This document shows positions 743 through 62,263 of a DNA stretch of 64,000 nt, piece by piece. The translations under genes and the position numbers were made by a program. The number at the start of each line of letters is the position of its first letter. Positions within the stretch are counted from its first letter, which is position 1. The stretch comes from Selaginella tamariscina (lineage: Eukaryota > Streptophyta > Lycopodiopsida > Selaginellales > Selaginellaceae): assembly GCA_003024785.1 (NCBI GenBank), contig PUQB01000031.1:372001-436000 (forward strand), read 5' to 3'. The notes under the pieces are model-generated. The model did not search any database and was not told where the DNA came from. It worked only from the letters and a program-made list of their open reading frames with translations.

Positions 743-776
<34 letters not shown>

Positions 777-3255: not shown

Positions 3256-3344
<89 letters not shown>

Positions 3345-5021: not shown

Positions 5022-5097
<76 letters not shown>

Positions 5098-34336: not shown

Positions 34337-34395
34337 TCTATAGGTTTCTGCGCATCTCTGTAGGTTTCTGTGCATCTCTGTAGATTTCTGTGCAT
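34337..34395. repeat. 20-bp tandem repeat ahead of the Harbinger ORF
   Basis: The unit TAGGTTTCTGTGCATCTCTG occurs about three times with small changes. It lies where the 5' UTR of the Harbinger gene should be. Confidence 0.8.
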
Positions 34396-34435
34396 TGGGA
34401 GAGGAAGAGAAGAATTCAGGAGAAATCGGGAGAGA

Positions 34436-37311
34436 ATGACAAAAGAGCAAGCAGATCAGGTAGTCTTCTTTTCTTTCTTCTTCTTTTCTTGCATTCATTT
34501 GCATCAGGAGGCGGCCATAGAGACTACTAGCTTTATTCGAGCTCAAGGGGCGGCCCAAAGCCCGACTGCAATTGCTGTCGGGCTTTCAGCCGCCCCTGGC
34601 TGGGATGGCATGAGCTCGACCGGCATTGGCCGAGCTCATGGGCCGGCCGAAAGCCCGGCAGCTACTGCTACCGGGCTTTCTGCCCACCATAGCTATCAGG
34701 CACATGGGCCGGCCGAAAGCGTGGCAGCAACTGCTGTCGGCTTTCTGTCCACCATAGCTACCGGGTTCATGGGCAGGCCGAAAGCCCGGCAACAACTGCT
34801 GCCAGGCTTTCTGCCCACCATAGCTGTCGGGCTCATGGGCTGGCCGAAAGCCCGGGCAAGTGCTATCGGGCTTCCTGTCGATTATGGCTGGGCTGGCTTG
34901 AGCTCGGCCAGCATTGGCCGAGCTCATGGGGCAGTAGAAAGCCCGGCAGCGACTGCTACTGGGCTCTCTCCTGCCCCTGGCTGGGATGGCTTGAGCTCGG
35001 CCAGCATTGGCCGAGCTCATGGGGCAGTAGAAAGCCCGACAGCGACTGCTTCTGGGCTTTCTGTCGCCCCTGGCTGGGATGGCTTGAGCTCGACCAGCAT
35101 TGGCCGAGCTCATGGGGCCACAAAAAGCACGGCAGCTACTGCTGCCAGGCTTTCTACCGCCCCTAGTTGGGCTAGCTTGAGCTCGGCCAGCATTGGCCGA
35201 GCTCATGGGGTGGCCCAAAGCCCAGCAGCTACTACTGCCGGGCTTTCTGCCGCCCTTGGCTGGGTTGGCTTGAGCTCGGCCAACATTGGCCGAGCTCATG
35301 GGGCGGCCCAAAGCCCGACAGCAACTGCTGTCGGGCTTCCTGCCGATTATGGCTGGGCTGGCTTGAGCTCGGCCAGCATTGGCTGAGCTCATGGGGCAGT
35401 AGAAAGCCCGGCAGCGACTGTTGCTGGGCTTTCTGCCGCCCCTGGCTGGGATGGCTTGAGCTCGGCCAGCATTGGCCGAGCTCATGGGGCAGTAGAAAGC
35501 TCGGCAGCGAATGCTGCTGGGCTTTCTGTCGCCCCTGGCTGGGATGGCTTAAGCTCGGCCAGCATTGGTTGAGCTCATGGGGCAACAGAAAGCCCGGCAG
35601 CTACTACTGCCGGGCTTTCTGCCGCCCCTGGTTGGGCTGGCTTGAGCTCAACCAGCATTGGCCGAGCTCATGAGGCGGCCCAAAGTCCGGCAGCTACTAC
35701 TGCCGGGCTTTCTGCCGCCCCTGGCTGGGCTGGCTTGAGCTCGGCCAACATTGGCCGAGCTCATGGGGCGGCCCAAAGCGCGGCAGCAACTGCTGCCGGG
35801 CTTTCTACCTCCCCTGGCCACCCACAAAGCCCAACAGCAAGTGAAAGAACTCGGGTTAGGTCAGCTAGGTATGTCCGGTTGAGGAGACAACAACAACCTT
35901 CAAGGGTGGTGGGTGAAACAATTGACATTGGTGAAAATGAGGGCAAGGGCCAGGGTTTTGAAGAAACTTCACATGAGATTGAGGGGCAAGCAAGAAGCAA
36001 ACAGCCTCGGTCTCGGAATTGGACAATGGACGAGACAAAGACGCTTGTGGAGTTGAAACGACAAGAGTTCATGGCTAGGTTACAGATGTCAACTAGGCAA
36101 CTTGTCAGTGTAACAGCAAAGAGACAGATTGCAAAAGAAATGCAAGCACAAGGTTTCGACGATCATGATGGAGAACAATGTCGTAAAAAGTGGGAGAATT
36201 TAATCAACGATTATAAAGTTATTCACGACCACAATAGGAAGTCGGGAGCTGCTGCATATTCGAGCTTGTCGAATCTAGAGAAACGACGCCTTAGATTGCC
36301 AAACATGGACTTGGACCTGTTTGATTTATTGGATTCATTTCAAGGTGACCGAAGCTGCATGACGCCCCAACACGTAAACGACTCTGAAAATGATCCACCG
36401 ATGACTCTAGTTTCACAAACAACTTCCACAAGTGCACCTTTGACTACTGATCACTCAGATGATGATGGAGATGGTGTCACTGTGACGAGAAGGCAAGCAA
36501 AGAAGGGAAAGTCTAGTTTGGTTGAACCGGTTAATGAAGGTACAAATGTACTTCGAGCCCAGGTTAAGATGAGGAGCCGCCAATTTGAGAGGACAGTAGA
36601 GTTGAGGAGGGAAAAGAACGCTTCTATTGAGAAGTTCGCATTGGCTATGACACGAATTGCTGATCACATTTGTGACAGGGCAACAAAGACTAGATTAGCA
36701 TGGGTGCATGTAGGTTTATATATTTATCATTTGCAAGCTTTTATTTGGATTATGTTAATGCATTTTTGTTTGTTATTTATAATATCGATTATATTATTTT
36801 TTCAGGACCGTTTAATAGGATTAGCCTCGACCATGGCTGGAGATTTTTTTATTCAATTCATCATGAATGACTCGGATTCTGATTCGGATGCTGAAGATGA
36901 AGAACGTGACAATTCAGATGATGATGATGCAGTAGTTCAGTCCATGCGGAGGTCAACACAAGCTGCAATTGATAGGTCTTCTCCTTCACAGTGGGTTCGA
37001 CTACGGAGTGAGGCATGGTGGGACACTTTTATGATGTCACACTATGATGATGAGAGGTGGATAAAACTTCTTCGAATGTCACGGAGAACCTTTGTTATGA
37101 TTTGTAATATATTAGAGGATGACATCTCAAGGCGGGATACCCACTACAGAGAAGTTGTACGAGTGGATATTAGAGTTGGAGCTACACTTTGGAAGATGGT
37201 GAGAAACAGTGACTACATGGACATTGGTGAGAGGTTTGCTATTGGAACTTCAACTGTTATGGCTGTGTTTGTATAGACGACAGCAGCTATTTGTCGACGT
37301 TTCTGGTATAA
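34436..37311 (+). pseudogene. Harbinger gene, 5' half: repeat domain, Myb/trihelix domain and N-terminal transposase
   Basis: One frame runs from the ATG at 34436 through the 93-bp repeats, a trihelix/Myb-like DNA-binding domain and the N-terminal part of a Harbinger transposase. The DNA-binding domain spans about 36008-36320 (SRNWTMDETKTLVELKRQEF, QCRKKWENLINDYKVIHDHN). An acidic linker (NDSDSDSDAEDEERDNSDDD) follows, then WVRLRSEAWWDTFMM, RTFVMICNILEDDI and MDIGERFAIGTSTV. The frame is broken by CGA-to-TGA changes in repeat units (35384-35386 and again near 35570) and by a TAG at 37274. An intron at about 36710-36806 (GTAGGT...TTTTTTCAG) is likely. PIF/Harbinger elements usually encode the Myb-like and nuclease proteins separately; here they share one frame. 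The rest of the nuclease lies at 51921-52815. Confidence 0.75.
34600..35830. repeat. 93-bp GC-rich minisatellite coding for 31-residue repeats
   Basis: From about 34830 the spacing between successive AGCTCATGGGGC-type landmarks is exactly 93 bp (34921, 35014, 35107, 35200, 35293, 35386, 35479, 35572, 35665, 35758). Before that come diverged, shorter units. 93 bp is 31 codons, so the plus frame of the transposon ORF runs through; the reverse strand is also open. Each unit holds two inverted repeats: GAGCTCGGCCA...TGGCCGAGCTC around a 4-bp loop, and AAAGCCCGGCAGC...GCTGCCGGGCTTT. GC content is far above its surroundings. Confidence 0.9.
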
Positions 37312-37818
37312 ATGCAAGTTGTAACTAAAATGGGCATGGCTATAGTCCCATTTCCTTAATAATTAGCAATTTTAGCTATTTAATTAGCATTTTCTAATAT
37401 TAAAGGAATATTCTTTAGAATATATGTTTGAAAATAGAATATTCTTTAGAATATTCTATTTTGTATTCTACCCTTTAATAAATTATAGCATTCATTGAAA
37501 AAAATTAATAACATTATAAAAGTAGAAGGTATTAAATTATATAATATATTGCCTAATATAACAATTAAGGAAGAGCATAAGAGGTACATTATATAAATAT
37601 TGATGTTGTTATTAAAATATTAATATTTAAATATAACATTATTAATTAAAAATTTGTAGTAGTAATAATATATATATAAAATCCTATAATAATATAGTCA
37701 ATCTTCCATATCATTTTTTAAATTTATATAGTTAAGTATACAATTTGGTACTATTATTAAAGAGTTTATAATAATTATGAATATTAAATATATGATATTT
37801 TATAATTTTGTAATTGCT

Positions 37819-40800
37819 TTAAGCTTCAGAAAACATACATTCCCTTGCAGTTTTGTTAATCGTGACTTTATCAACGCTTCTTGACATCCACCCATATCGA
37901 ATGGATTTAACATTTATAAAACATGCTGGGTCTTTTTGATTGGGAGACCATGTTTTCTCTAGGCATCCATTATATCTTTCGCTCTCCTTCTCGTGTCGCC
38001 TTTTTTGTGGTTTGAACCATGCAACCTTAACAATACTATTTTTTGTGATTACTTCAGGTGTGTCGATAATTTGACCCATCCAAATAGGCTGATTATATGA
38101 CGCATCTGGAGTAATGAGAACCATCATTAGTTTTTGAAGATCCTGGCAACAATCAAAGTATGCTTTAGGTTTTTGGTTCCTTTGTCCAACAAAGTGTGGG
38201 GTTTGCACTTCCACATCACTACTGGCTTCTATGTCGTCTATGCTCAGTGATGTCATTTCAATCTCCTCTCGCCACCTTGTTTTAGGCCAGAAAGGGTGTT
38301 GCAATTCTGTACTTGTGACAGTAGGCCCTTCCAACTCTCGAACAACAGTCTCCCAATAGTCGACCACATGCTTATATAGTTCTGAGTAACCAGTTGCCTT
38401 ATCAGAATTCTTTGGCATCGATTTTTGAACCCATGCCACATATTTTTTGATGCCATCAATAATAACCTCTTGTTCCTTGAGCTGGGCACTCAATGGAATA
38501 GGGTCTGGTTGTCCTTCTGGGAGAAGTGGCTTTCCATCCTCTCCACTTTTGAAGAGCATTAAGCCCTCTTTCGGTAACCACTCCTGCTCTGATGGCCGTA
38601 ACTTGTACTGCATAATAGGTATACCATCTCGTATGGAGAAAAAGAATTGTAGCGGCACAAGGTGACCAACTAAAGAATCACTCCCTTCTTTTATATACTC
38701 CTTGAGAAATTTTTTGAAGTCTGGCACCTCAGTCACAAGCAAAGCACAACTTTTTTTGGAGATGCAATTTTCAAAAAGATTCATCATATGCGGTAAGGTA
38801 AGTGCACTTGTCCTTTTTTGTAGAGTTGGAGACCTTGCTGAAGAACGCATCAATATCTTCATGAGTGTGACCAACCATAAGGAAACTGAGCGTGATTGTT
38901 TCAAACACACCTTTGGCAACAAGCATTGACAAGTATGCTAGCACATATCTAGAAAATAAAAGTAAGTATGAGCTTGAGAAACCCTTAAGTAAAATGATTT
39001 ACCTATTTTTGTTCTCGCCTGCACAATTATCCATCTGTAAAAGCAAATGACGAGGAAGCTTATTTGATGTTGAGGACACATGTACACTATTTGAGCTAGA
39101 TCCCTCCACTGAACCTGAACTCTCAACAGGGCCATCTGTGTGCAGGTTGCTGACAATGCCTCTCATATTCCCAAGTAGCCTCAAGTGCAGACGTGTTCAT
39201 GAGAGCATTATGTAAAGGTTGAAGGTGTTGTTTCTTCACTTTGAGATCACTGATAGGACTTGTCTGTGAGTGGGCTTCAAGGTTTCTGAAACACATGGCT
39301 AACGACCCAATAGTGAAATTGGAGTCGCTAGACCAATGTGGAAGTGAAAAGTGTCCATATGACTCACAACCGTGTCCATGTGTTAGCACACCTGTCAATG
39401 AAATCGGAAGTTTCATGACATTTCCAAGGCACTTTGGTGTTGCAAAGAGCTTTGGAATGCTGGTCTTTGAATGATCCATCTTGTCATGGATCAAGCACAG
39501 GTACTCTGATGGGCGTGACACAGAAAGCATGCGGTGTGCATAGTACTGAGACCGGCAAGTTTGTTGTGCAATCATGTGGGCCTCCATCTTCTTTGAATGG
39601 TAGTGATCTCCACCAAGGTTTTTGCACAAGCCTCTGCAGCCTTCAATGATGTACAAGTGTCACACTTAAAAAGCTAGAGTGTTTTGCAATCTCCACATCC
39701 TTAAAATGAGTATTCCATATGTTGTTGAAGGTACCAGTGCAGATTGCTTGGAGCCCCATCAAACTGAGGCACTTGTTCACATGTTCACACAGTTTCAATT
39801 GAGTGTAGATTGAAGGCAAAACCTTGAGATTTTCCCTGACCCCTGCATTTGTGGTTCGGCATTTGTGAGGCATCCTGTCTGCATTTGCTTCCACAAAAGC
39901 CTTGAGTATCTCTATGGCTGCCATGATGTGAGAGCGGGTTTTGACCAAGCGAGTGTTCCCATGAACTGAGGTTCGCGCTCCATCTAGCCACTCATCCCTC
40001 CGACGGTAGAACGTGGTCTTTGGGATCCCGTATATACTGTACCAAGCTTTGAAGCAGATGGCCACCTTATTAAATACCATGGATGTACTCTGATAACCTG
40101 TGTCCGAGGCCATTCCATCAATACACCCAGTTAGTGCAGCATATACAAACTCATGCCTTTGCTTTTGGGTGAGCATACGAAAGACATGTCTACATTGGGT
40201 AATTTCATTCCGGTCTGCCATCTGACAACACTTCTTCTTGCAACAGTCAATCGTGGAAATGCTCGTAACACTTTCGGAAGATGTAGATCCATCTTTACCC
40301 TCTTGCTGAAACTTGCAGGGGAAGATCTACAACCCATGAATCGCCTTTTTCTTACAATAGGACCAATGCAAGGAACCTCTTCAAATATGAGTTGTTCTTC
40401 CGGGTTGTTATTGAAATCCAACCCAGAATATGTTGAACCATCTTGCCGTCTTAATTCAGATGTTCGCCACCTCACGAGGGATCCAGGATACAATGTGCCA
40501 TTAGGTGAAACCTCTGTCACAACTACACCCACGAAGTCGGACCCTAGTTTCTCTTCTGACACTGCTTCCATTGGATTTATAGCTGTGATGATGCCTCTTC
40601 CGACTTCAATCTCACGAAGAAAGAGAATCACCTCATCCATCACAGCAGGCAAGCCATCATCTGGTAAACTCGTGCTACTATTTGTTTGTGACTCTGCATA
40701 TTCTGTGTCAGCCTTGACTTCATCCAAATTCCACAATACAGGAGAACCCTCCTCAAATTCCATTCCCAGAACCTCAACATGCTTGTAAATGGTGTTCACC

Positions 40801-41880
40801 CATACGTACACACAAGATCCTTGGGCAATATTGTGACATGATGCATTATTATCTCGAACTTCCACAGTTCCAGTGCCAACTATCTCGTTGTTCCGAAGAA
40901 GACATACTTTATCTCCAGTATTAAACATATTGTCCTGCACATAAATAATTGTATTATTTATGATATCTGTTTATGCAATATTTTAAGAAATCTGAATTAC
41001 GGTTACTTAATAATATGCATATGCAATAATACATAATTATGTTTAGAGATAATATCTCATGTTTGATTAATACAACTGATGGGCGGGATTAATCCCGCCC
41101 ACGAATCCCTCCGACGAGGAACGGTCGGCGGGATTAATCCCGCCGCCGACTCAACCCCTTCGGAGAGAGTCGGCGGGATTAATCCCGCCGGACTCCCCCG
41201 ACAGGAAGAGCGCGGGATTAATCCCGCCGCTCTTCCTTCGGAGGGAGTCCGGCGGGATTAATCCCGCCACAATTCTTACGACGGGAATGGGTGGCGGGAT
41301 TAAACCCGCACATAACTCTCCAAAACTATGATTTCAAAGAGATCTCGGATAAATCCTGTCCCCAAATCCTTAAAACAGGGATGTGGTGGCGAGATTAATC
41401 CCGCCACCCCTTCCTGCCTCCTAAAATGGTTGGCGGATTAATCCCCGACACTCTTTTAATAAAATTCTGGTAACTCTTCATCAGTTGAGAAGGTTATCGG
41501 CGGGATTAATCCGCCACTCTTTTTCAGTGGCGGAGAAGCATTGCCCGAGAGATGGTGGCGGGATTAATCCCGCCACCTCTTCGAAGAGGCGAAAAAGAAA
41601 TGGCCGGATTAATCCGCCGCCCCGGTTAACCTAGAATATTAAGTTAAAAGGATATTTAAACGGGATAAATCCCTAACGGAATATATTATAATCCTAATGC
41701 ATTCCTAAACCCCTAAATTGTAATTTTAAGAGAGAATGTAAGAGAGTGAATCTTTATAAGTATTTTTAAATTTGTTTATAATACTTACTTGTAAACAGCA
41801 CTGAAGGCGCCGTGCTTTCCTATAAAGAATAGCACCCAATTTAATCTCGCTCCTGAGATGATCACTATGAAGAAAAAGAA
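37819..41880 (-). CDS. DUF7869-like, RNase-H-fold-type candidate transposase of the 14.6-kb element (frame broken)
   Basis: Minus-strand exons: possibly 41880-41790 (5' exon ending at a GTAAGT), 40940 to about 39004, and 38947-37819. In order: a small N-terminal module (NTGDKVCLLRNNEIVGTGTV); a Cys-rich stretch (DCCKKKCCQMADRNEITQCR); MLTQKQRHEFVYAAL; a region with ARTSVHGNTRLVK; the first likely catalytic block (EYLCLIHDKMDHSKTSIPKL, about 39500-39440); LQMDNCAGENKNR at 39040-39002, then YVLAYLSMLVAKGVFETITL, SFLMVGHTHEDIDAFFSK (about 38946-38850); and a 300-residue C-terminal part (WLPKEGLMLFKSGEDGK, ATGYSELYKHVVDYWETVV). The DNC-x-GENKN and GHTHEDID blocks are the hallmark of the widespread proteins annotated DUF7869. 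A transposase role is inferred from acidic residues, context and terminal repeats. At least four frame changes are needed. Confidence 0.65.
41078..41680. repeat. Palindrome array 1 (about 13 copies of an 18-bp dyad)
   Basis: The perfect palindrome GGCGGGATTAATCCCGCC recurs every ~40-60 bp, near 41085, 41132, 41174, 41252 and 41556, with shortened or mutated copies near 41214, 41294, 41389, 41431, 41499 and 41604. The degenerate ends (CGGATAAATCC, ACGGGATAAATCCC) also belong. The spacers differ from one another. It lies upstream of the DUF7869-like gene. ORFs across it (GGINPA repeats) are by-products of the repeat. Confidence 0.95.
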
Positions 41881-44800
41881 GATCTAAAGAGTGAAAAATA
41901 CAGAAATGAAGAAACCCTTGCCGGAGAAAGAACCAGATCTGAATTTGAGTGGGAAATTAAATGCATTTTCAAATTTACATGTCAGACCGACAATACATAT
42001 GTCAGAAATTCAAATTTTTTAAAAAGAACAGAAAATAAAATTTAAGATGAGTTGACACAAATATCCGACACTCTGACATATATACTCTCCAGTTCCAATG
42101 AGTATTTTAAAATTGCATTTAATGTTATTCAAGTGATTCAAGCTGTTTAATATTACGAAATTTTAGACTATATTCTACATTCTTAGTATTCAAGTATATT
42201 TATATTATATATATATATAATATATACTTATACAATAAATAAATTGATATATTATTATGTATCATTTAAAATATATTCATAGTCTGTTTATTATTATTAT
42301 TTTCTTAATTACTCGAGTATTTAGTTTTCATTTCCTAGTATCAATGGGATATTCTTTATTATTTTATTAATATTTGAAGAATATTCTAATATTAAACCTG
42401 ATTATCATAATTAAATTAGTCTTGTTCTTAATTATTGCAGTAATTATTCTACATTTGTATATATTAATGGGATTTTCTCAATTAATTTGTTATTATTTCA
42501 AGAATATTCATGTGTTAAACCTTATTATCAATATTAAATTAATATATATTATTAAAACTATATATGACTATATATTAGATTGATGTATTTATGTATAATT
42601 TATATGTTCATAGTGTGTATATTAATATCATTTCCTTAATTACTTGAGTAATTAATCTTCTTTATATTAATGGGATATTCTTTATTATTTTCTTATTATT
42701 CCAAGAATATTCCAATATTAAACATGATTATGATAATTAATTTAGTTAATTATTTGAGTACTTAATTTACATTTGTATATATTAATGGGATTTTCTCAAT
42801 TAATTTCTTATTATTTCAAGAATATTTCAATGTTAAACCTTTTTATCAATATTAAATTAATATATATTATTAAAACTATATATGGCTATATATTAGATAA
42901 AATCATATATTATTATGTATAATTTAAAATATGTTCATAGTGTGTTTATTAATATTATTTTCTTAATTATTCGATGTTTGTTTTGCACACATATATAAAC
43001 ACAATCATAAATTTACACACGCATTACAAGAACTTACACACATATGCACACACATGCACAACCCTAAACCAAACTGAAGAAATATGTTGCTTCTTTATTG
43101 AAAACATCATGTTCAACGCATGTATGATATATGTACTCAATCTGTGTGTATGTAACACATTGAATTTACATGTGTAATATTTATATTAAGCTTGTTGGGA
43201 GCAAACCCTAAACCCTAAACCCTAAACCCTGTGTATACATGTGTGTACAAAAATAATTTTTCAACACTCTCTCTTCACACCATGCATGATCCATCCTAAA
43301 CCCTAAACCCTAAACCCTAATATGTAACACAATGAATTTACTCATGTAATATGTATGTATGAATACAATCGTTCATGAGGAAGTTAAAAGACCTGTATTT
43401 AGGATACTTGATATTTGCTTGTACATTGTGTTCTGTGTGTATACACGTGTGTATGTATATATGTGTACTCTGTATGTATATATGTGTACTTTCTCTTCTC
43501 TCATACATATACACCATGCATGATCCATGTTAATATGTACTGTTCTCTTCTCTCAAACATACACACCATGCATGATCTATAATATGTACTCGGTCTCTCT
43601 AATATTATGTACTAATATGTATGTATGTCTGTGTGTATAATACACACCATGCATGATCCTAATATGTACTCTCCTCTCTTCTCTCATATACTATGTATGT
43701 ATATCTGTGTATAATATGTGTAAGTATATATGTGTATTATAATATCAATGTGTACAAAATAATTTTCAACACTCGCTCTTCTCTCATACATACACACCAT
43801 GCATGATCCATCCTAAATCCAAAACCCTAAACCCTAAACCCTAAACCCATGTAATATGTATGTATGTCTGTGTGTATACACGTGTGTATGTATATATTAT
43901 GTGTATTAATATATGCAATGTGTATGTATGTATTGATACACATGAAACTTTAACACTCTCATGGACACACACATGTTAAATCCCTGCATGATTTATATTT
44001 TTGGGGTGTATGTGATACACCCACGCACACACACGCGCTAATAATATAATGAAAGAATATTCGTTTAGGGCGAATCTATATTTTATTCTTTTTAGGGTTT
44101 AAGTATATTCTCAGAAGGAATATTCTATTTAGGGTTAATATATATATTTAATTCCTTTAGGGTTTAGTATATTCTTAGGGTTTCAAGAGGCGGCAGCTGT
44201 GAAATCGGCGGCGGCGGCTGTGCACACAGGTGAGATCTGTGTGTGTGTGTGTGTGTATATATAGTATGTATGTATAAATGTATAGGAGTTGCATATAATT
44301 TATGTGTACCAGTATCTATAAATTTGTTTTTATTGATCTATCTCTCCCACACACACGCACACTGCTTACATATATATATATATATATATAATCATGCATA
44401 TTAACAAATAGTATACAACACTAGTTTATATATATGCTTATATATTTATATGGGTTATTATCTATATACACACATATATATATGTGTGTGTTTATCTGTA
44501 ATTTTATTTATTTATTAGTTTTATCTCTCGCACACCACACGCACACTCCTGTGTATATATATGTGTGTGTGTGTTTGTTTATCTGTATGATTTTATTTGT
44601 TTCGCTCACACACGCATACACACAATATACATATACACATATATATATAACCTATATCATATATACATACATATTTATGTGTACCAGTATCTATTAATTT
44701 TTTATTGATCTATCTCTCCCACACACACGCACACTGCTTTACATATATATATATATAATATATATCAATGCATATTAACAAATAGTATACAACACTAGTT

Positions 44801-45131
44801 TATATATATGCTTATATATTCACAGACTCTCTCTCTTTCTCTATGGTTATATATCTATATACACACATATATATGTGTGTGTTTATCTGTATAATTATTA
44901 TTTATTATTTTATTTTCGCACACACACGCACACTCCTGTGTATATATATGTGTGTGTGTGGTTTGTTTATCTGTATGATTTTATTTGTTTCGCTCACAGC
45001 ATACACACGATATACATAACACACATATATATACCTATGTACACCACATATAATTGTACCAGTAATGTATAATTTATTTATTTATCTATCTCTTGCACAC
45101 ACACGTACACTCCTATACATACATACATACA

Positions 45132-45176
<45 letters not shown>

Positions 45177-45235
45177 TATATATATGTGTGTGTTTTATCT
45201 GTATAATTTTTTTTATTATTATTTTTTCTCTCGCG
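41700..45235. other. AT-rich core between the two palindrome arrays
   Basis: No gene is seen. It contains a ~310-bp tandem duplication (about 42355-42600 and 42665-42930, sharing TATTAATGGGATTTTCTCAA), a ~400-bp tandem duplication (about 44280-44690 and 44690-45060, sharing GTGTACCAGTATCTAT), telomere-like runs, and many TG/CA, TA and CTCT tracts. Short ORFs are low-complexity artefacts. It separates the divergent genes and is the obvious place for promoters or an origin-like region. Confidence 0.7.
43203..43848. repeat. Telomere-type CCCTAAA runs
   Basis: Three short runs of three to four CCCTAAA units lie near 43205-43230, 43296-43320 and 43812-43846. CCCTAAA is the plant telomere repeat (Arabidopsis type). 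They lie inside the 14.6-kb element, at least 12 kb from its ends, among near-repeats containing CACACCATGCATGATC. Confidence 0.9.
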
Positions 45236-45239
45236 CCCC

Positions 45240-46775
45240 TCGAGCGGCGGGATTAATCCCGCCGCTATAGGTTTATGCCTCGCAGCGGGATTAATCCCGC
45301 CGCTATATGGTTGGGCCATGGCGGCAGGATTAATCCCGCCGCCAAGGCCCTTCACGCAGGCTATGGGCGGCGGATTAATCCCGCTGCTCTAGGACAAACC
45401 GAAGAGCGGCGGATTAATCCCGCCCCTGGCCTGCGTGAGGGGCCTCGGCGGCGGATTAATCCCGCCGCTCACCCATGCCTTGCGCGGAATGCGGCAGGAT
45501 TTATCTCGCTGGCAATGGCCTGTATGAAGGCCCTAATGGGCGGATTAACCGAAAAGCCTGCATGAAAGATCCTGCACGGAATGCTAACCGAAGAGCCTAC
45601 ATGACATGTCCTGCGCGTAAGGCGGCGGATTAATCCCGCCGCCCAGGAATTCACGCAGGACATGAACGGCGGGATTAATCCGCCCACGCTCATGCCCTTC
45701 GCGGAGGGCGGCGGGATTAATCCCGCCGCTCAGGCACTTCCGCAGGATATAAGCGGCGGGATTAATCCCGCCCCACCCATCCCTGTTCAAAATGCCGCAG
45801 CCAATATATATGTGTGAGCGCATGATTTACGAGAGGGCGGCGGGATTAGTCTCTCCGAACCTTCATTACCCGGTGGCGGATTAATCCCGCCACCTTCTTT
45901 TTCCTCCATTGGTATGTTGAATCAATCCCGACTAACTCTGTCTGAGACGGAGAAGGTTTACAAAATACCAATGGAGGGAACTGAGAAGGGTGGTGGGATT
46001 AATTTCACCATCCCTTACATGGTGGGCGGGATTAATCCCGCCGCGTACGCATGCCCTGCGCGGAATCGGGCGGGATTTATCCCGCCGCCATTGGCCTGCC
46101 TGAAGGGCCTAGGCGGCGGGATTAATCCCGCAAGATTTCGCACAGGGCATTGGCGTTCGGCGGGATTAATCCCGCCGACTAAGGCCCGAGTGAAGGGCCT
46201 GGGAGGCGGGATTAATCCCCGCGCGCAATGCCCTGCGCGGAATCGGGCGGGATTTATCCCGCCGCCATTGGCCTGCCTGAAGTGCCTAGGCGGCGGGATT
46301 AATCCCGCCCGATTCCGCGCAGGGAATTGGCGTCCGGCGGGATTAATCCCGCCGCATAGGGACCGAGTGAAGGCCCTGGGCGGCGGGATTAATCCCGCCG
46401 AGTCTTCAATGCCTGTTGGAGAATGAATCCCGCCACCCTTCTTTTTCTCCATTGGTGAGTCGGACCAATCCCAAACGTTTCTGTCTGAACGTAGAAGGTT
46501 TACAACATACCAATGGAGAGAATGGGAAGGGTGGGAATTCATTTAACCATCCCTTACATGGTGGGCGAGATTAATCCCGCCTCCTTTCTGGAGTCACTGA
46601 AGGGGTGTGAGAAATAAATCCTGCCCAGTTCTCTCTGAGACCGAGAAGGGTGGCAAGATTAATTCCGCACTCCCGTTCAAGGCCTCCAGAAAGGTGGCGA
46701 GATTAATCCCGCCCACTCTTTCAGGAGGCATTGAAGGGGTGGCGAGATTAATCCCGCCGCACCTTCCATGTGAAT
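45240..46775. repeat. Palindrome array 2 (about 30 copies of the 18-bp dyad)
   Basis: The same palindrome GGCGGGATTAATCCCGCC recurs from 45245 to about 46760, typically every 40-46 bp, some copies perfect and some reduced (GGCGGATTAATCCCGCC, GGCGGGATTTATCCCGCC, GGCGAGATTAATCCCGCC). Spacers are partly related to each other (CCTGCGCGGAAT, TGCCTGAAGGGCCT, CTTTTTCTCCATTGGT), showing amplification of longer units. It lies upstream of the ParB-like gene. Reading frames through it (GGINPA-type peptides) are artefacts. Confidence 0.95.
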
Positions 46776-46872
46776 ATATATGTGTATTAGTATATATAAG
46801 TTGCATATCTCATTTTATTTACTTTTATCATCTTATCATAATATTTCGAGTAAAAGCTAGGAATCTATGTAA

Positions 46873-46959
46873 AACTGTCCAGAGCTCACATTTGTGGTGG
46901 TTCTAAAACGAAATGTTATCTTTCTTTTGCACTAACACAAATGTGAGCTTCGGACAGTT
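46873..46959. other. Hairpin-forming inverted repeat between array 2 and the ParB-like gene
   Basis: AACTGTCCAGAGCTCACATT plus TGTG (46873-46896) is matched by its reverse complement at 46936-46959 with two mismatches, leaving a 39-base loop. A 24-bp stem with a short loop in a likely 5' UTR or promoter could be a small-RNA precursor, a tiny inverted-repeat element or a protein-binding structure. Confidence 0.6.
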
Positions 46960-47101
46960 AATTACGTCTACTTCTCTCTGTGTATTATTTTTGTATATTC
47001 GGGTTTATACAAGTGTGTGTGCGTTTTTATATAATTTGTATTTATAGTGTATTATTTTGCAGAAGGACGATTTGATCAAACAAGGAGATCGAGTCATTAG
47101 T

Positions 47102-50100
47102 ATGGAGTCGTCGTCAAATTCTGGGTAAGAATTAAAATAAAATCTGTTATACTCGGATACTTGAACTAATCATTTTTGTATTCAGATGTGGAATTGAGGT
47201 GACATTAAAGACAAGAGCAGGAGAAGAGATGGGCAGGGGGATTCTGGAATCAACTTGGCCATATTTTAAGATAAATGGGAAGCGCATTGGAGCAACCATG
47301 GTGCTGTCAAATTAACCTCTGTCACATCTCATGGACAAGCAAAACAATGGAAAGTAGATTCGCTAGTCAAGCACCCGAAAGCAGGCTGCGAACCCAGATT
47401 GGACGATGCTCGACAGATATGCCTTGTTCCATCCAATGTCACGTTCTCGGATCCAGAGGTCGTCAGTTACAACATTAATTTCGGGTGGTTTTGTCGACTT
47501 GTGGATAATGACGTTCACGTGTTCACTAATGATGTTGACCTTGGAGTTCTTCTTCAACTCAACGAAAGCCCATCTATGGAGGGGATCCATCTGGATGTCT
47601 ACTTCGAAGATCTTCAGACTCATCGAGTAGGTGTATTGTCAGGAGATATTGCTTCACAATACAGAAAATCAGCAAGTGGAGCAATCTTCCCTCTTCACAT
47701 TGAAGAAGAACACAGCGACATCATAAGGAGATTGAGAAGGGGCTCGGTCTCAGGTTCTCTACAGATCACGTTCAATTTGCTTAGGAAGCTTCGGGAGCTG
47801 GAAGAGTGTGCCGAGAACACTAGAACAGCTGCAGTCGGGGATCACACATGTTGATTCGGATCGCAAAAGAAAATCATCAATCGTTTTGTCAGCTGCACCT
47901 GTGGCATCTCATGCTGCAATAAGTCACAAGGAAATGATGTTGGATGATAAGATTTATCCTTGTAGGGTTAAATATTGCAGCGTCAACCCAAACTTCAATT
48001 ACAGGCCACTCAACCAGGAACGTGTAGCTGAGCTCATGGAGAAGATGAAGGACGACAATTCTTATACCGTTCCACATAATGCTGTTTTGTGTCCATACTA
48101 TGAAAGAAGGAAGGGCGCTGACAAAGTCTGGATCACAACACCAGAACAACTCATGAAGATTCAGACGGAGAATAAAAATCTATCAAGTACTACATCATTA
48201 GTGGCCAGCACACAATAACGGCAGCCCAACGACTTCTCGAGAACACAACAAAGGAACGATGGCAACAAAACTTTCCGAGCATACCCGTGAGAAGCTGACA
48301 AAAAGATCGGCGTTTTTAGCTAAGCCGAATCTCACAATCGAGCAGTACCATAAGTTATCGGCGGAATGGGACGCTGCCGACACCAACCACTACAACAGCA
48401 AAATATGGGAGAAGTTTAAACACACGCGAGCCGTGTGGGAATCTCTTCAGCGACCACAAAGAGCTACCGCAGGGAATACACAATCTGCGGAATACCGGGT
48501 AAGCAAATTGTTTGGGCGGGATTTATCTCGCCGGTATATTAATCTGTCTTTTTTCAGAGAGTTGAAGAAATTGCAGCAGTTGATTTTGCCCAGGTGGGCG
48601 GGAAGGAAACATCCTTTCTGATGATGTTGATTTCTTGCCCCGAAGATAGGATCTTTGCCAAATGGTTGGGGATTATGGAATCCTTTTCAAAAGGAACACT
48701 GAAGAAGAAGCAGACAAGTGAAGGGGAGCCCTCAGAAAAGTCTGCAAAGAAACCCAGTAAGACGCCGAAGGCTAAGTCTGTTCAATCTACAAAGGATGTA
48801 GACAACGATTTCAAGCTCACATGGTTGAAGCCTTTAAATGGAACAACGATGGAGGAGATGGAAGTCTTGGCTGATTTGGTGATCGATGGCAAACTACAAA
48901 TTAATAACAGCAGCCCAACCTCTCCTTTTCATCTCAAGGCAATGGAGTTGAAGACGGTCAGGCATTTCAAGGAGTGGTTGGGAATACACTGCCACAAACT
49001 GGGTTGGACCTCGACTTCAACATATGAAGAGGTCAGCAAATATTTGCATGTGACGAACGATGATATGCTTGTCGAATGGGTGAACCAATCGGAAGATCTA
49101 GGCAAGAATCTATTGCACGCCAACGCCAAAAAGGAGAACATTGGGATGACGCCTTCTCTTATGGCAGTCCTTCAGCAGCGGAGAACCGAATTGAACCTTA
49201 TAAAGGAGGATGCTACGAATCACGACAAGCCCTACAGATGTTTGTTGTTAGATTCGGAGACTTTATGGGGTAACATCACTGCTTGTAGGAAACCGTTTCA
49301 ATTGTTCGTGATGGATCGGCGGGTGTCAAAAAATCTTTCGACAGATAGGGCACTAGAGGATCTGGTGGAGAAACTTAGCCGTGCAAGCATATACATAGAA
49401 GGTATTTATTATTGAATTCATGCTTGCGCTCTTCACTGATACCTACTTTTTCAGGTATTTATTTCTTGATTCTTGCTCATGTCACCGATACTTTTGCCTT
49501 CGCCTTTCGCCAAGAAGAATAGACATCGTTGGACAGGATTTTATATGAACGATGCTAATCCCAAGTGCATTGATACCGTTGTTCACTTGGTTGTTAGGAA
49601 TGCGCCAAACAATTTCAAGCTTCCAAATGACTGGCCAGGCATCTGTTTGCACTCCAACGGCCCTGAACCTCCATCCGATACACCGATAGGTATGAGTGAC
49701 GTATTCGGCAATGTACGTTATCCAAACATTACAAGTCAAGCGGCACGGAGCATCGTCAACTTGATCAGGGGTCCTCACAGTGATGCGTGGGTTTTTGACT
49801 ACTGCACTAGGGGGTCCGTCTTGAAGGAGTGTTACCTTCGGCATACATGTGTGTTTGCCGTTGAAAGGATAAGACCATGGTTGAGGACCTGAACAAGTGG
49901 ATAGATTGGGTCTCAACTGAGTACCCCAACGATCCATAAAGGCGTATTTGAGAAAGTTCCCTCCAGATAAGTGCGATAGCTCTGAAGGTGAATCTGGTTC
50001 AATCTCGGAGTCTGAGAACGAACTTCAATCAGATATTAGACCGGAAGTTATCTCGAGGAGTACAGAACATTCGCACACTCCAGGACCCATGGAAACATCA

Positions 50101-50168
50101 ATAGAAGATGCAGAAGATCTTGAACCATCTCACAAGCGGCTTAGACCTTCTTCGCCTCACAGAAGGTA
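47102..50168 (+). CDS. ParB-like domain plus DNA-methyltransferase-like domain protein of the 14.6-kb element (frame broken)
   Basis: Reading begins near 47102 (MESSSNSG) with introns at about 47125-47186 and 48499-48557. In order: a small module (GRGILESTWPYFKINGKRIG); a 150-residue segment (SDPEVVSYNINFGWFCRLVD); a ParB/sulfiredoxin-like region with VNPNFNYRPLNQERVAELME (47980-48040) and YYIISGQHTITAAQRLLENT (48190-48252); a helical tail ending RAVWESLQRP; a Lys/Ser linker; and a C-terminal region with DAWVFDYCTRGSVLKECYLR then CVFAVERDK (49785-49880). The last has the shape of the AdoMet-binding motif I of DNA methyltransferases (D-x-C/F-x-G-x-G-S, then an acidic strand end); a Gly seems mutated to Arg. 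ParB-methylase fusions are known in bacteria and phages. An acidic Ser-rich tail ends at 50168. At least four frame shifts are needed, so this copy is probably dead or badly sequenced. Confidence 0.5.
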
Positions 50169-50454
50169 ATAGCGAAGAAGAATTGATAATGAATTGATAG
50201 AGTGATGAATAGTTGTAAATGAGTGTAACATAAGGCATTTTTGTATATTTCTTTTATATTTGTACAGAAAATAAATTCTCAAGGATTAATGAAGCTTTTA
50301 GTTCAAACATGGGTCACACATTAACAAGGTAAATAATATACCTTGATAATTTTAAGGTCAGCTAATTATCATTTTGCAGATGTAATGAAATAATTGAGAA
50401 CATGGATTTTCAGCATTGCCATGAGGTAAGAGAGGGGTTTGGCGACAATTTCTT

Positions 50455-51631
50455 GTGCCACATGTCAGAATGACAGAGTTCATGCAGGAAATGGATAATA
50501 ATGCAGCTCAAAACATCGTTACCATGGGGGCCACTTCATCATCATTTTTATTGGCTTCAGTTCCGAAATCAATTTCTTCAGCGCATGCAATATCTGAATC
50601 TTGTAAGGATGATGTACAATTAAATGATGAAGGGATAGGCAACGAATAGTGGCAACGGATAAATGTGAAAGGGAGCAAACAAGTGATTTGCAAAGTATTC
50701 AAGAGGCAACGCTATCTCATGTTACTCATGGCCATATTGTGTTGTTGGATGTCAATGGTGTTCTGCTTCATCGACAAAGGCCCAGGATAGAAAAAAGAAA
50801 TCAAACAAGGAGATTTCATTCCTTGTCATGGTAAATTTCGATATGATATTATTTTTCGTCCAGGGTTGGATCGTCTCTTTCAAAAGCTTAAGGAGATGGG
50901 TGCGCTTGTGGGGATTTGGTCATGCATGCAGATTCATAACTTAACACCGCTGTTGAATTTACTTAAGAAACATTGTAGTGTTGCAGAAGAGGTGATTCGT
51001 AAAGATTGGATTTTTGACCAGCGAATTGTTATAACCTCTCGAATTTCACAATATAAGAAAGGAAAGCAAGCCATACTTCTTCAAGAATGAAAGAATAATT
51101 GGGACTCATGGGGAGATCAGTCGCTTAAGGATAATGAAGAACGCACATATGTTAGTAGTAGACGACTCTCCTCAGAAGGCTATGCTCAACCAAAACATTG
51201 CTTGTATTCATCCAATCACTTTCGATCCATATTCTGATACCGATATCATGGATGAGCTAGTGAACTACTTGGATACGTGCCTCAGAAAGAAGAATCTCGA
51301 AAATTTTTGTGAGCAGTATCCACCGTATCATACATTTCCTGAAGCTTTTCTTTCTCGTGATATTGAATTTTATAAAATGAAGGATAGCAACCGGGCGCTT
51401 TATAATATTATTCTTAAGGAACGTCAGTTTTTAGATGAGCCTTTATGCAGACCTTCTCTTATCACATCTTATGTATTAACAAGGATGGCAACTCCCAATT
51501 GCATTCGTGAGAGTGTTAAGTGGTGGCAACAACATCAAGATATTGACCAAAATGATTTGATTAATCCGGAGAGTGATGATTTAGACAAAATGAAAAGATT
51601 TCTTTGTATGATAGAAAGAAAGTATTTATAA
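50455..51631 (+). CDS. NIF/FCP1-like HAD phosphatase (captured gene; frame broken)
   Basis: The C-terminal-domain-phosphatase-like (NLI-interacting factor) HAD fold is recognisable. GHIVLLDVNGVLLHR (50730-50772) is HAD motif I in the D-x-N-G form used by many plant members, so the usual second Asp is Asn. IIFRPGLDRLFQKLKEMGAL (about 50848-50907) and VGIWSCMQIHNL match motif II. MLVVDDSPQKAMLNQN (51152-51200) is the DDSP motif IV, followed by DIMDELVNYLDTCLRKKNLE and a plant-specific tail ending MIERKYL at 51631. Frames change between motif I and the GLDRLF piece and again near 51080; some of these may be introns. It follows the ParB-like gene on the same strand and lies just inside the right end. 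It may be host-derived cargo. Confidence 0.6.
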
Positions 51632-51920
51632 AAAAATTAACATGTTGATAAGAAAATGATTTCATTTGTAATTATGTTTGATAGTATTTCTTCATTATTG
51701 TAAACTATTTTTAGAATAATATGAATATTCTAAGATATTTTAGGAATATTCCTTACTAAGTAAGGTTATTGAAGGATTAATTAATTAATTAATTAATATT
51801 TAAGGCTTAATTACATATTAATTAAATGATTAATTAATAATTAAAACTTAAGTATTAATTAGTAATTTATTTTATATTCCCATTTTCACGTATCATGCCC
51901 ACTTTAGTTACAACGTGCAT

Positions 51921-52815
51921 ATAAGGTGGCATTTCCATCGACGGAAAATGAGGTTCGTGAGATGGCACATGAGTTCCAAGATGTGACACACACTCATTTA
52001 ACAAATGTTGTGGGGCCATAAATTGCACACATGTGGAGATACTTCAGCCTTCTACAAATGACCGGACGGACTACTTGACAGGAAGCAACGGAATAACATC
52101 ATTGCAAGGGGTTGTTGATGCACGTAAGGGTTTATAAATGTGAATGCTGGATGGCCAGGTGAGCAAGTTACATTCATTTTAATTATGTTTGTGTAATGTT
52201 TTGGTATTTGCAGGTAACGTGCATGATATGCGAGTTTGGAAGAATTGCTCACTTCATCAAAAGATCATTGATGAGATTTATCTTCATGGACCTTTGGAGG
52301 CTGCTCATGTTGATTTCGTGAAGCCTTATATTTGTGGGTGATAAAGGATATCAATTACAACCATTTTTAATGGTCCCATACACAGGCATGTAAAGTTAAT
52401 ATATTATAACATATTTAACTTGAGTTTTTATAGGTGTTCATCTTAATCTTGGTCAGGAGACCTTCAACAAGGAGCTTACTAAAGCACGATTGGTGGTTGA
52501 GCAAACATTTGGCCTTTTAAAGTAAAAATTTCGTTGCCTGATTATAAGTTGAGAGTTCACCTTCCACACATTCCGAATACTGTGAGTGCTTGTGTATTCT
52601 CTACAACATCCTCATTGATGAGGGCGAAGTGAATTATGAGGCAACTTTACGAGCAAGGGAGCAAAGAATTCGGCGACGTTAAGAAAGAGGGAGATGGTGG
52701 AGTATGATGATCCTTCACAAGATCCTCGAGAACTTGGTGAGGTAACTACACATGCTCGCACTATTAGATCAACTCTTGAAAGCTCATCTTATTTTTGGGA
52801 CGCCATTTGTTAGGC
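51921..52815 (+). pseudogene. Harbinger transposase, 3' half
   Basis: This continues the transposase interrupted at 37311. Pieces in order are KVAFPSTENEVREMAHEFQD, the first-Asp region NVVGAINCTHVEILQPSTND, GVVDARK, INVNAGWPG, NVHDMRVWKNCSLHQKIIDE, the second-Asp region DKGYQLQPFLMVPYTG, and the Glu helix FNKELTKARLVVEQTFGLLK, followed by a tail ending near 52815. The HDMRVW, DKGY and ARLVVE motifs are typical of the PIF/Harbinger DDE_4 nuclease. Introns lie at about 52155-52213 and 52386-52432. One-base losses (for example in the G run near 52015) and a TGATAAAG at 52339 break the frame. Confidence 0.8.
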
Positions 52816-53650
52816 ATTAATTTGGAAATTGTTAATTTAATATTTTCTTTATTATTATTTTTTGTTTTACCACAATAAATATCATGTGTTAAAAATAAAT
52901 GTGAAATATAAAAAGGATGTATACTAGAAATAGAATATATTTAGTATTTTTTTGTTAAATAAATAAAAATATGAAATGCAAATACATGTATACACACATG
53001 TTAACGCACATGCATATATATATATATAATATTTTTCATGAAGTTTTACTTGTTTAAACATATCCAAAATATATAAAATTTAATTATCTATAGAATGTAC
53101 CCATATACAATATTATATATAAGTATATAATTTCATCTCACCATATTTTTTATTTTTTATAAGTAAAATTACTTTAAATGTTAATAAAAATTAAGGGTGC
53201 ACATATTATTTAAATAATAAATATATAAATATTTTTAAAGTGGTTAAAATATTTATTACAAATTGAAAATAAATTTTATTGCAAATTGAAAATTATTTAA
53301 AAATATTTATTAAAACTTGACATAATAATGTTATATGAAATGTAGATATGTTAAGTTCATTAAAAATAATTAAGTTAATAATCTTAACTTAAATGTAAAT
53401 ATAAAGTATATTATATTAAAGGCAATATTCGAATTCATGACCCTTAATATTTTTACTTAAGTATCTATGTGAATCCATTGCCCTTAACCAATCTCTTAAT
53501 TTAAGTAAAAAAATTAAGGGTTGATGAGTGTGAATCAATTGCCCTTAATAAATTCCCTTAATTTAAGTTAAGGGTTGGTACGAATTAAACCCTTAACTTT
53601 TACTTAACTTATGCATGTTAAGTTAAGTTAAGTGTGGTGCGAAATGACCC
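52816..53650. other. Harbinger 3' region and right subterminal repeats
   Basis: This is AT-rich sequence without genes. From about 53440 to the right end it contains many CCCTTAA/TTAAGGG and CTTAACTTAA words, mirroring 33894-34080 at the left end. They are probably transposase-binding subterminal repeats. Confidence 0.6.
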
Positions 53651-55691: not shown

Positions 55692-58274
55692 TCAAGTGGT
55701 TGTTCTTGTCACTGGTGTTTTGTTGTTTTCCTCTTCTCTATTAAACGACGGATCAAAGTACTTAGCCACGGCTTTGTATAACTGTTCCTCCTCAAAGGCT
55801 TCGAAACGTACCTAAACAAGATTTACAAAAGTTAACAACTTTATAATATAAATGCAATGAGACATAGAAGTATTATATATAGATTTTATTACTATGTTAT
55901 TAAAATATATATAGAGAGAGTTATAACATCACACTTCTAGCATTACTGTTGATTATTATAAGATAATTACCTTCGTATGAATCTCTTACTAGTTTTTGTT
56001 TGTTAAATACACATTAATATTATAAAATTTTATATTAACTAGCTATATCAACTATACCGATGTTATCTAATATATAACTATATAAGCTCACTATTGCATT
56101 ATAGGGAATGCATTACAGCTACATATAATTATATAGTCTATCTATATTGTATTTAATAATAATTTAGTCATCTATTCTTATCTTATTTCGATCTGCGCGC
56201 GTGTGTCATGCACTATGATAATTAAATCTTATTTGTGTATACAAGCTGAAAAAACCATGGTATATATATAGTATTGTAAGCCATGTCTATCTTCATATAA
56301 TCTACAGTAATATTCATATAACATATAAAACAACAGCAATGACACGTATTACTCCATTTATGTTATATATTTCATACTATCCCCGACCTACGACCTATCT
56401 AGACTTTTACGTATTAATAATACGAGCCAGTTTCTTATCGATGTATCAAGTTATGTTAGTTTAAGTCGTTAACCATACATGTATTGCTAGAAGATTTATA
56501 CTAATTTAATATGTTAGTTCAAGTCTTACCCGTCCATGCCGCATTTAGTACATTCGTCCCTTGTTGCTTGGATTAAATCTGCTGTCATTGCCAAGATTGG
56601 AATCCTCCATTTGCAGTCTTTGCCTTCTGCTTCCCTAATCTTTCTAGTTGCCTCAAACCTGAAATACAACAGAAGCAAACACAATAACTATGTGGTGTTC
56701 GCTACAAGAGAGAGAGAGAGATAAGTATATACTTATAGATGGTTTGTACAGACCTAGATACCTCTGTGTATATCACACCCATAATTTCGCACAGGTATCT
56801 ATGAGTGTGGTACAAAATAGATGGCGTATGTATCCATATATGTATTATACGTATTCAGAGAGTGCATAAACATAAACATACGTACCGTCCATTTCAGGCA
56901 TTTGCACATCCATGAAACAAGCGTCAAATTCATGAGAAGGTTGAAGCCTGGCAATGGCAGCTTTCCCACTCAACACACTCTACACGAGCACCGTACTTAG
57001 TAAGAGCCCAGCAGCAACACGCCGGTTCACTTTGTTGTCATCAACGACGAGGATTTGCTTCCCGGCCAACAGGCTATGCAACCTTGAGCCTTCTGAGAAT
57101 TCCCGGCCATTTATCCTCTTGCTCCCGTACCCGAATACTTTCTCCAAGAAGTTTGCAAATGAGCTCGCTCTCACCGGCTGCATGGCATGTTCAAACATTA
57201 AGCAAAACAGACACGCCCATGCACACTCCCTATAGATATATTGTCCCTCTCTCTGTATATGTAAGAGACAGTTACTATTGTTTATCGTTTATCATATTCT
57301 ATAAAGAACCATCTAATATTATGAACACACACACATGAATTTGTTGGTACCCGCCCTCTCTCTGCATATACATATATATCGTGACAAATACATCATGTAT
57401 GATGCATGTCTAGTGTATGTGTTTGTCCATATTTACAAGAAATACAAACATATATATATATGTAAAGATCTTACACGTGCTGTATCCAGGTGCCTCTGTA
57501 TACAGGCAGTGTGTATACATAATATGCATATGTATGTATACATGTGGTCAACAATACCTTGTGATGAGTAGCAATGAAACCGGTGGGTGCAGGCTTTTGA
57601 GGCTCGTTCTCTAGTGTTGAGCCTGCGAGAAGAATAAACTTTGCATTCTGAAACCTCCCTCCGGCCTCCTTTAGTTTGTGTGGAACTACCAAGCCAGAGC
57701 CTGGTCCCCATGAATCCTTATCTACAAGTACCATGTCCACATTCCTGTTTTAAAATAGATGAAAACAATTAATACGTTATCAATGGTTCCAAGCGCAGGA
57801 TGGATGTATGCCGTAATGGTGTGGAGCCCATCCATATAAGCTACATATACGTATGGAATAGATGTAGGTACGGTATCTAGTAATTATGTGTGGAATGAAT
57901 GCAAATGTACGTACGCATGTAAATTCTTGCAGGACTGTATGCAAGCAAAACAAATAAAACGAATGGAAAACAATGTACTGAATGTAATGTATGATATGTT
58001 CTGACGGGGAATTGTAAGAAATAACGTATCTATGCATACAGGAACGTATGGTTTCTAATGTATAATGGAGTAAATGCATCCATACATGCACGCATGTTTA
58101 CCTTCCACATACTGTCGTAGCAAAAAGCAGATCATAAGCCACTTCCACTTGTATTCCTAATCTTTGCAAATGATATCTCGTAATCTGTGCCCTAACAGGC
58201 CTTCCATCCACCACAAGTGACCTCATGCCTATTGATATTCAAATTAGATATCTATATAAATCAAATACATATAT

Positions 58275-58316
<42 letters not shown>

Positions 58317-61300: not shown

Positions 61301-62263
61301 TATCTCGATCTTCCTGCAAGATAAGAGAATTGTGTATAAATTTCGTAAATACACATGCACATATGTATTATAGTATGCATGGCATACCTTTCCAGAGAGC
61401 ATGTCAAGAGATTCCAAGTAAGACAAGCTATTCTGTGTAAAAACTGCCGGAGCATACTCTTCCTGCGGACTTTGTACTTCTTTGGTGGTCATTGTTCTGA
61501 TTTGCCAGCCATAACGTTTCTCGAAAGCTTTACGTTCCGAGTGAAAAACTCGTTGTGCATATGCCACCCCCGTCATCAGCGGTCTCTCAAATGCCGTCCT
61601 CTTTGTATATACTGCAAATGTTTCCTGTATACAACCAGTATGTGTTAGTCTTCAGAAAACCCACGAAGAATACGAGAAACCCACCTGATCGAGAACTGAA
61701 GGATGTTTTCCGAGGTGGAAAGTCCTGAGAAGAGCAGCAAGAGCTTTAACGTGGTTCATGCTAGCAGTGAATTGATCTTGAAGCATCCAGGCACGCTCGT
61801 CGCACATGTTCTTCAGCTGTTCTTGATGCCGCTTGGTGAAATCCGTGCTCATAGACATACATGCCCAGACCGCAAAGCAAATACCGGATAGAAGCCATAG
61901 AAGAAGTAGAGGCCCGTACCACTTCTCACCTATCTTCCTGGATTTCGACGCCGGAATGCCACGTGAACTCGGACTGGGCGCCAACCATTTAGCCGAAAGC
62001 TTACCCCTGCTGCTGCTTGTCCCATTGGGTAATTGATGCTGCTTGCCGCAGCTATCCATGGAAGAAGCGCGATTGAAAACCTCCTTGACAACCGGAACTT
62101 GACACATTGTCGTAAATCTCTCACACGCCGGCCATGGTTCTTTCTCCGGAGCCAAACTTAGTCCTGATCTGTATGAATATGCTAGGAACTTTTCGCAAAA
62201 AGTGAAAGAACTTACTCGAACTCCGTTCTTGGGGAGATCCTTCCGCATTTGTGAGCCCTGCAT
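55692..62263 (-). CDS. HK3: CHASE-domain cytokinin receptor histidine kinase, AHK3-like (16 exons; several frameshifts)
   Basis: This is a membrane hybrid kinase (ER and plasma membrane): the CHASE domain binds cytokinin, and phosphate passes from His to a receiver Asp and on to HPt proteins. Exons on minus: 62263-61685, 61624-61388, 61313-61144, 60994-60780, 60713-60527, 60331-60280, 60165-59936, 59571-59473, 59314-59204, 58978-58870, 58693-58398, 58228-58102, 57744-57558, 57177-56886, 56658-56531 and 55811-55692, about 1,048 codons. Order: TM ([17 protein letters not shown]), CHASE ([37 protein letters not shown]), TM ([15 protein letters not shown]), H-box [14 protein letters not shown]-box LVGNSVK, G1 DTGVG, G2 [11 protein letters not shown], a degenerate receiver ([13 protein letters not shown]) and a true receiver ([29 protein letters not shown]). 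Frame losses occur in exons 4, 11, 14 (twice), at the 14/15 join and in exon 16, most at runs of four bases. The start is the first ATG in the CHASE frame; one at 62303 is in another frame. Confidence 0.9.
58276..58351. repeat. (CT)n-(CA)n microsatellite in receptor intron 11
   Basis: About 19 CT units, then CACACACCACAA and about 12 CA units. The tract lies between exons 11 and 12. Confidence 0.95.

Follow-up and report, generated by a model that had tools for sequence, protein, structure and literature searches.

A 64-kb stretch of Selaginella tamariscina DNA (contig PUQB01000031.1, positions 372,001 to 436,000; hereafter the window, in whose coordinates all positions are given) contains a 14,609-bp segment bounded by inverted ends and flanked on either side by ATAA. 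One strand carries a gene whose product belongs to the Pfam family DUF7869; the opposite strand carries a gene with ParB-like and methylase-like motifs and a gene with a C-terminal domain (CTD) phosphatase-like domain (Table 1). There is good support for treating these features as a single unit, in which two gene sets diverge from a repeat-rich centre between inverted ends and a 4-bp target duplication flanks the whole. The segment is almost certainly a transposon insertion, and the DUF7869 protein is probably its DDE-type transposase.

The two ends pair inversely at 24 of 26 inner bases and, together with the outermost A/T pair, form terminal inverted repeats of 27 bp with two mismatches; the best of 60 random pairs of 100-bp stretches lying 14.6 kb apart reached 19 of 26. 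This agrees with the original prediction, made from the letters alone, which had described inverted ends of about 27 bp with two mismatches and ATAA on both sides. The ends begin ATGCAAG, and no third copy was found in the window at up to seven substitutions. The duplication could also be read as the 5-bp TATAA, the outer T being assignable to the flank or to the element, but we prefer 4 bp because the end is then symmetrical; this length is known from one insertion only. The element thus displays both the terminal inverted repeats and the target-site duplication of a cut-and-paste DNA transposon.

The strongest evidence of insertion, absent from the original prediction, is the reading frame that is restored when the element and one ATAA are removed, whereupon the flanks form a single open frame across the junction (...TTAAICRRFWY continuing directly into KVAFPSTENEVREMAHEFQDV...). 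By Pfam, the left flank contains a Myb/SANT domain (E 2.6e-10) and the right flank a DDE_Tnp_4 domain (E 1.1e-7, above the cut-off, on a hand-assembled composite; two shorter composites gave no match to DDE_Tnp_4). Because the flanks rejoin in one PIF/Harbinger frame with one ATAA, the element is read as an insertion with a 4-bp duplication, and this empty site bears out the earlier view of a single unit with two gene sets diverging from a repeat-filled centre. The split host element is an older PIF/Harbinger transposon (35573-37311 and 51925-53100), itself broken by one stop and by frame changes, so that we are dealing with a transposon within a dead transposon. Just before the Myb/SANT region lies a G+C-rich minisatellite-like repeat (34364-35760) that is open in several frames, the G+C content reaching 61% at 35-36 kb.

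Table 1. Features of the element in window coordinates (a dot marks features without strand).
Feature	Position	Strand	Basis or remark
Whole element, 14,609 bp	37312..51920	.	Inverted ends, ATAA either side, flanks joining in one frame
Target-site duplication, left copy (ATAA)	37308..37311	.	
Target-site duplication, right copy (ATAA)	51921..51924	.	
Left terminal inverted repeat, 27 bp	37312..37338	+	Sequence comparison of ends
Right terminal inverted repeat, 27 bp, two mismatches against left	51894..51920	-	Sequence comparison of ends
Subterminal GAATATTC motifs, left, three copies	37406..37456	.	Right copies at 51723 and 51744
DUF7869 gene, proposed transposase	37822..40931	-	Pieces in different frames; Pfam PF25273
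Candidate catalytic E (VGHTHEDID)	38858..38860	-	Same motif in L012 and L014
Putative 54-nt intron of DUF7869 gene	38949-39002		
Candidate catalytic D2 (QMDNCAGENKN)	39029..39031	-	Aligned with QIDGGPENAN and QIDGGSENAN of L012/L014
Candidate catalytic D1 (IHDKM)	39483..39485	-	Aligned with ISDGM of L012 and L014
N-terminal part of DUF7869 protein	40296..40931	-	Second half weakly like the TNP1/EN/SPM domain Transposase_23
Palindrome array 1, upstream of DUF7869 gene	41082..41619	.	10 copies of GGCGGGATTAATCCCGCC, up to 4 mismatches
AT-rich centre	41620..45245	.	Degenerate repeats
Palindrome array 2, upstream of ParB/methylase-like gene	45246..46758	.	27 copies with 4 mismatches at most
Gene with ParB-like and methylase-like motifs	47102..49892	+	Pieces in different frames; motifs by eye
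ParB-like region, approximate limits (RPLNQERVAEL ... YYIISGQHTITAAQRL)	47943..48290	+	By eye
Putative 59-nt intron of ParB-like gene	48499-48557		
Single palindrome, two mismatches	48515..48532	.	Inside the putative 59-nt intron
Methylase-like region, approximate limits	49222..49892	+	By eye
Gene with NIF/SCP-type (CTD phosphatase-like) domain	50727..51631	+	Pieces in different frames; Pfam PF03031

The DUF7869-like gene named in the original prediction is confirmed by its profile, which reached 152.8 bits (E 1.1e-44) when the gene was read through as a composite, although single pieces scored 25.8 and 15.4 bits, each under the gathering score of 26. It is the sole Pfam family listed for the composite, a protein that exceeds 1000 residues in read-through and includes several additional regions, its first ATG being read at 40928. 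Pfam lists DUF7869 as of unknown function, and the name was not found in the open-licence literature searched. The N-terminal part matched Transposase_23 (PF03017) under the cut-off, at E 0.016, and at E 0.097 when the whole open reading frame (ORF) was used. This part and the N-terminal part of the ParB-like protein (47180-47560) are weakly alike (BLASTP E 4e-4 over 40 residues), which hints at a domain that the two large proteins may share. Of two supposed repeats, the similarity of one, which in the DUF7869 protein is the stretch weakly like Transposase_23, was equalled in 0 of 1000 shuffles; that of the other was equalled 468 times in 1000 and that between the two repeats 221 times in 1000, and Pfam found Transposase_23 in one of the two proteins only.

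Relatives of the DUF7869 protein were sought in several collections. Prokaryote contigs yielded 10 matches to the GHTHEDID pattern; a tblastn search with the composite recovered contigs L014 (E 7.6e-11) and L012 (E 8.9e-7), while L008 was dropped at E 0.06. Both L012 and L014, the only two scanned, are DUF7869 by Pfam. Their genes (2-781, minus strand, and 2551-4658, plus strand, in L012; 146-1692, minus strand, in L014) have a eukaryotic look, and the contigs are filed as Bacteroidetes metagenome-assembled genomes; L012 also has an ORF that by eye is gag/zinc-knuckle-like, without a Pfam match. The closest approach to the element ends in these contigs had 10-11 mismatches of 27, and that to the 18-bp palindrome GGCGGGATTAATCCCGCC of the element (see below) had 6-7 of 18, figures that carry little weight on contigs of only 5 and 6 kb. 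Among viral contigs, a part of the protein gave 25 pattern matches and no relatives, the GHTHEDID pattern gave none, and the DNC..ENKN pattern found four stretches, with a sole tblastn match at E 0.60 (L004). A search of plasmids with 3,769 bases from the region of the left gene returned nothing.

Is the DUF7869 protein the transposase, as the original prediction proposed? The support is indirect. Three acidic positions (D, D and E) are kept in the three sequences compared, those of the element, L012 and L014, and the second D and the E are separated by 38 residues in the element and by 37 in both relatives; the E motif of the two contigs is the one by whose GHTHEDID pattern they were retrieved. 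Low-confidence structure models, built from two 6-row alignments of short pieces of the three genes (an 8-row alignment was discarded for misplaced fragments), show an RNase H-like strand order with the acidic positions placed as in RNase H-type transposases. The best structural matches of these models were Argonaute/PIWI and Cas9 chains, none of them significant, and a fold search of BFVD likewise gave nothing significant (best E 0.059). A sequence search of the PDB with three composites found nothing meaningful: the best E values were 0.48 and 0.71 for two of them, and the third gave no match up to 0.1.

The ParB/methylase-like gene lies on the strand opposite the DUF7869 gene. Here the earlier claim stands at the level of motifs: the ParB-like and methylase-like readings are based on motifs judged by eye, and no profile of Pfam, PHROGs or NCBIfam scored above its cut-off, so an identity supported by profiles was rejected. 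The methylase-like region can be read as an amino-methylase, a presumed catalytic motif (LLLDSETLW) being followed by a presumed S-adenosylmethionine motif (WVFDYCTRGSVLKECYLRHTCVFAVE). We would expect a DPPY-type motif where this copy reads DSETLW, and because the catalytic motif is altered, the protein of the sequenced copy, if a methylase, may be dead. Matches below the Pfam cut-offs were Herpes_BLRF2 (E 0.13), DUF658 (E 0.14) and DUF6551 (E 0.06), of which the last, presumably a ParB-like family, falls on the second ParB-like motif and is the only profile hint; two NCBIfam models reached E 0.0043 and 0.023, with scores near 16 and 14 bits where their cut-offs are 622 and 583. A part of the protein gave one pattern match and no relatives in viral contigs, and none in phages.

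The third gene, which the original prediction lacked, matched the NIF family (PF03031) at E 4.5e-10 on a read-through composite (39.9 bits against a cut-off of 21.8). In all three genes the pieces change frame at several points, and the copy as sequenced is not intact; the breaks may stem from decay or from assembly errors. The two putative introns (Table 1) are very short, introns of 54 and 59 nt being short for a land plant, and may be a sign that the element arose in a different host.

The palindrome arrays that had been predicted are a property of the element. Within it there are 13 exact copies of GGCGGGATTAATCCCGCC and 38 copies at up to four mismatches, whereas the remaining 49 kb of the window contain none at this tolerance; 200 base shuffles of the element gave a mean of 0.03 copies and a maximum of 1. 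At five mismatches, 39 copies lie inside and 3 outside. In array 2, 21 of the 26 distances between neighbouring copies are 33-46 bp. Because the palindromes stand ahead of both gene sets and not at the ends, their position points to the control of expression. The GAATATTC motif, with 10 of its 12 window copies inside the element (3 near the left end, 2 near the right and 5 in the centre), is a candidate site for the transposase. The AT-rich centre also holds telomere-like AAACCCT runs (43203-43230, 43295-43320 and 43812-43848).

Beyond the element and its host transposon, the window has the character of a land-plant chromosome, with which the AAACCCT runs also agree. Exons at 58244-61648 on the minus strand encode CHASE, HisKA and HATPase domains (Pfam E 1.1e-9, 1.9e-8 and 2.2e-11) and belong to a host gene, the domain set being what we take to be of the cytokinin-receptor type, and a prefoldin subunit exon lies at 4680-5048 (Pfam E 1e-14). 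Scanning the window for Rfam families and tRNAs gave no matches.

How might such an element work? Our preferred reading, to which we assign a probability of roughly 0.68, is a large cut-and-paste transposon moved by its DUF7869 protein, with the ParB-like protein perhaps acting on the element's own promoter arrays and the phosphatase gene carried as cargo. The DUF7869 transposase would bind the ends and the subterminal repeats and excise the element, which would be joined to its target with a staggered 4-bp cut, as the duplication suggests; because the frames of the sequenced copy are broken, movement would need an intact copy elsewhere. ParB proteins bind palindromic parS sites, and the ParB/amino-methylase-like protein would correspondingly bind the palindrome arrays upstream of both divergent gene sets. 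The arrays might then be methylated; should the change in the catalytic motif be common to the family, they might only be occupied. Either state could protect both promoters from host silencing, leaving them active or under regulation. That the protein acts on the arrays is the analysts' tentative suggestion, with rather less than an even chance of being right. VANC proteins lift silencing by binding motifs that recur in the noncoding DNA of VANDAL elements (PMC10398659). Among unicellular eukaryotes, adenine methylation accompanies permissive chromatin, and plants are reported to have lost the AMT1 pathway (PMC12695648). An adenine methylase borne by the element would therefore have no competitor.

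Other explanations differ in how much of this model they would replace. The gene frames are broken at several places, as happens in low-accuracy assemblies, and one could suspect an artefact or a chance pairing of unrelated inverted ends; the ends, the duplication and the restored reading frame nevertheless agree to the base, making this very improbable. A further proposal, in which DUF7869 is a cargo or domesticated protein and the element was moved by an unseen or external transposase, draws on the size and extra regions of the protein, on the broken state of the copy and on the unknown function given by Pfam. We consider it quite unlikely: no transposase profile scored above its cut-off in the 10 stop-to-stop ORFs of at least 120 aa that were scanned, of 14 in the element (Transposase_23, at E 0.097, was the only transposase match), and the conserved D, D and E with the modelled strand order would fit a DDE enzyme.

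The arrays might instead be sites for a host factor that ties expression to dividing cells, the ParB-like protein being no binder at all. They do lie upstream of both gene sets, and each palindrome consists of two back-to-back GGCGGGA/TCCCGCC halves, which we take to resemble E2F sites. This is possible but doubtful, since 38 copies retain the whole 18-bp palindrome at up to four mismatches, with none elsewhere in the window, and one copy stands in the putative intron of the ParB-like gene; such retention and the intronic copy suit an element-specific binder at least as well. Close to an even chance, and compatible with movement by the DUF7869 protein, is the view that the element is a land-plant member of the Sola superfamily, of the Sola1 type, with DUF7869 being a second name for the domain of the Sola1 transposase, and with a ParB-methylase cargo like that of the algal giants; it would decide the classification. 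Sola1 is listed from Physcomitrella (PMC9033089), Sola2 elements are reported with AT-rich 4-bp duplications (PMC3627910), and in Ectocarpus a Sola1 element of 21.5 kb has a gene for a ParB-methyltransferase on the strand opposite its transposase (PMC12477816). The last two parallels weaken the earlier statement that the class is unrecognised. Against the Sola view, the likeness to Sola is one of element description and not of transposase sequence, the ParB and methylase calls here are at motif level, and such cargo is also reported for other algal transposons (PMC12477816) and so does not fix the superfamily. It is less probable, and in our view speculative, that DUF7869 represents an unnamed transposase superfamily, of which this plant member has a ParB-parS-like system, with a ParB/methylase-derived protein reading the arrays ahead of both gene sets and marking or shielding its own promoters in a lineage, the plants, that is reported to have lost AMT1.

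If the model of a DUF7869-driven transposon is true, a domain family to which no function has been assigned would be recognized as a transposase, for which this element supplies the ends and the target duplication. The ParB/methylase module, bacterial in type although it lies in a plant transposon, would likewise gain a candidate 18-bp palindromic site. The motif arrays and their element-encoded binder would then constitute a second, independent anti-silencing route of plant transposons, with parts apparently unrelated to VANC.

Among known systems, Sola1 has a 4-bp target duplication, CACTA/EnSpm elements have CACTA-type termini and a duplication of 2-3 bp, and VANDAL21 has a Mutator-like element (MULE) transposase and longer duplications, its VANC protein being, to our knowledge, not known as ParB-like. 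CACTA/EnSpm, which the N-terminal part of the DUF7869 protein weakly recalls, was ruled out by ends that begin ATGCAAG and not CACTA and by the 4-bp duplication; giant EnSpm elements with several genes are reported in red algae (PMC12477816). KDZ elements (Zisupton and kin) are similarly large and carry accessory genes, but Zisupton duplications are 8 bp (PMC12730594) and this group was ruled out by a duplication of 4 bp, at most 5, and by DUF7869 as the only Pfam family on the protein. PIF/Harbinger, with duplications of 0, 2 or 3 bp (PMC12730594), was ruled out by the 4-bp duplication, its DDE_Tnp_4 and Myb/SANT domains being in the flanks. VANDAL21 of Arabidopsis resembles the element in its repeated short noncoding motif and in an element-encoded protein that acts on its own copies, with the difference that binding is shown for VANC and proposed here (PMC10398659).

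The Sola elements come closer. As described, Sola2 of dictyostelids shares short terminal inverted repeats (12-13 or 21 bp), a large transposase (888 aa in one) and foreign cargo, which there is Fanzor1 and not ParB/methylase (PMC3627910); the AT-rich ATAA agrees with the 4-bp duplications of the Sola superfamily. The nearest published element found is Sola1-1_Ec32 of Ectocarpus, a large DNA transposon that encodes, opposite its transposase, a 1104-aa protein with ParB and N4C/N6A methyltransferase domains (PMC12477816), domains that are matched here by motif only, with negative profiles. The two, compared by description and not by transposase sequence, differ in size and host (21.5 kb in a brown alga, 14.6 kb in a land plant), and the available passages on Sola1-1_Ec32 mention neither palindrome arrays nor a phosphatase gene (PMC12477816). 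The element may be a plant Sola1, and we class it as a variant of the ParB-methylase-bearing giant transposons that have been reported in algae, where its combination of genes has a precedent.

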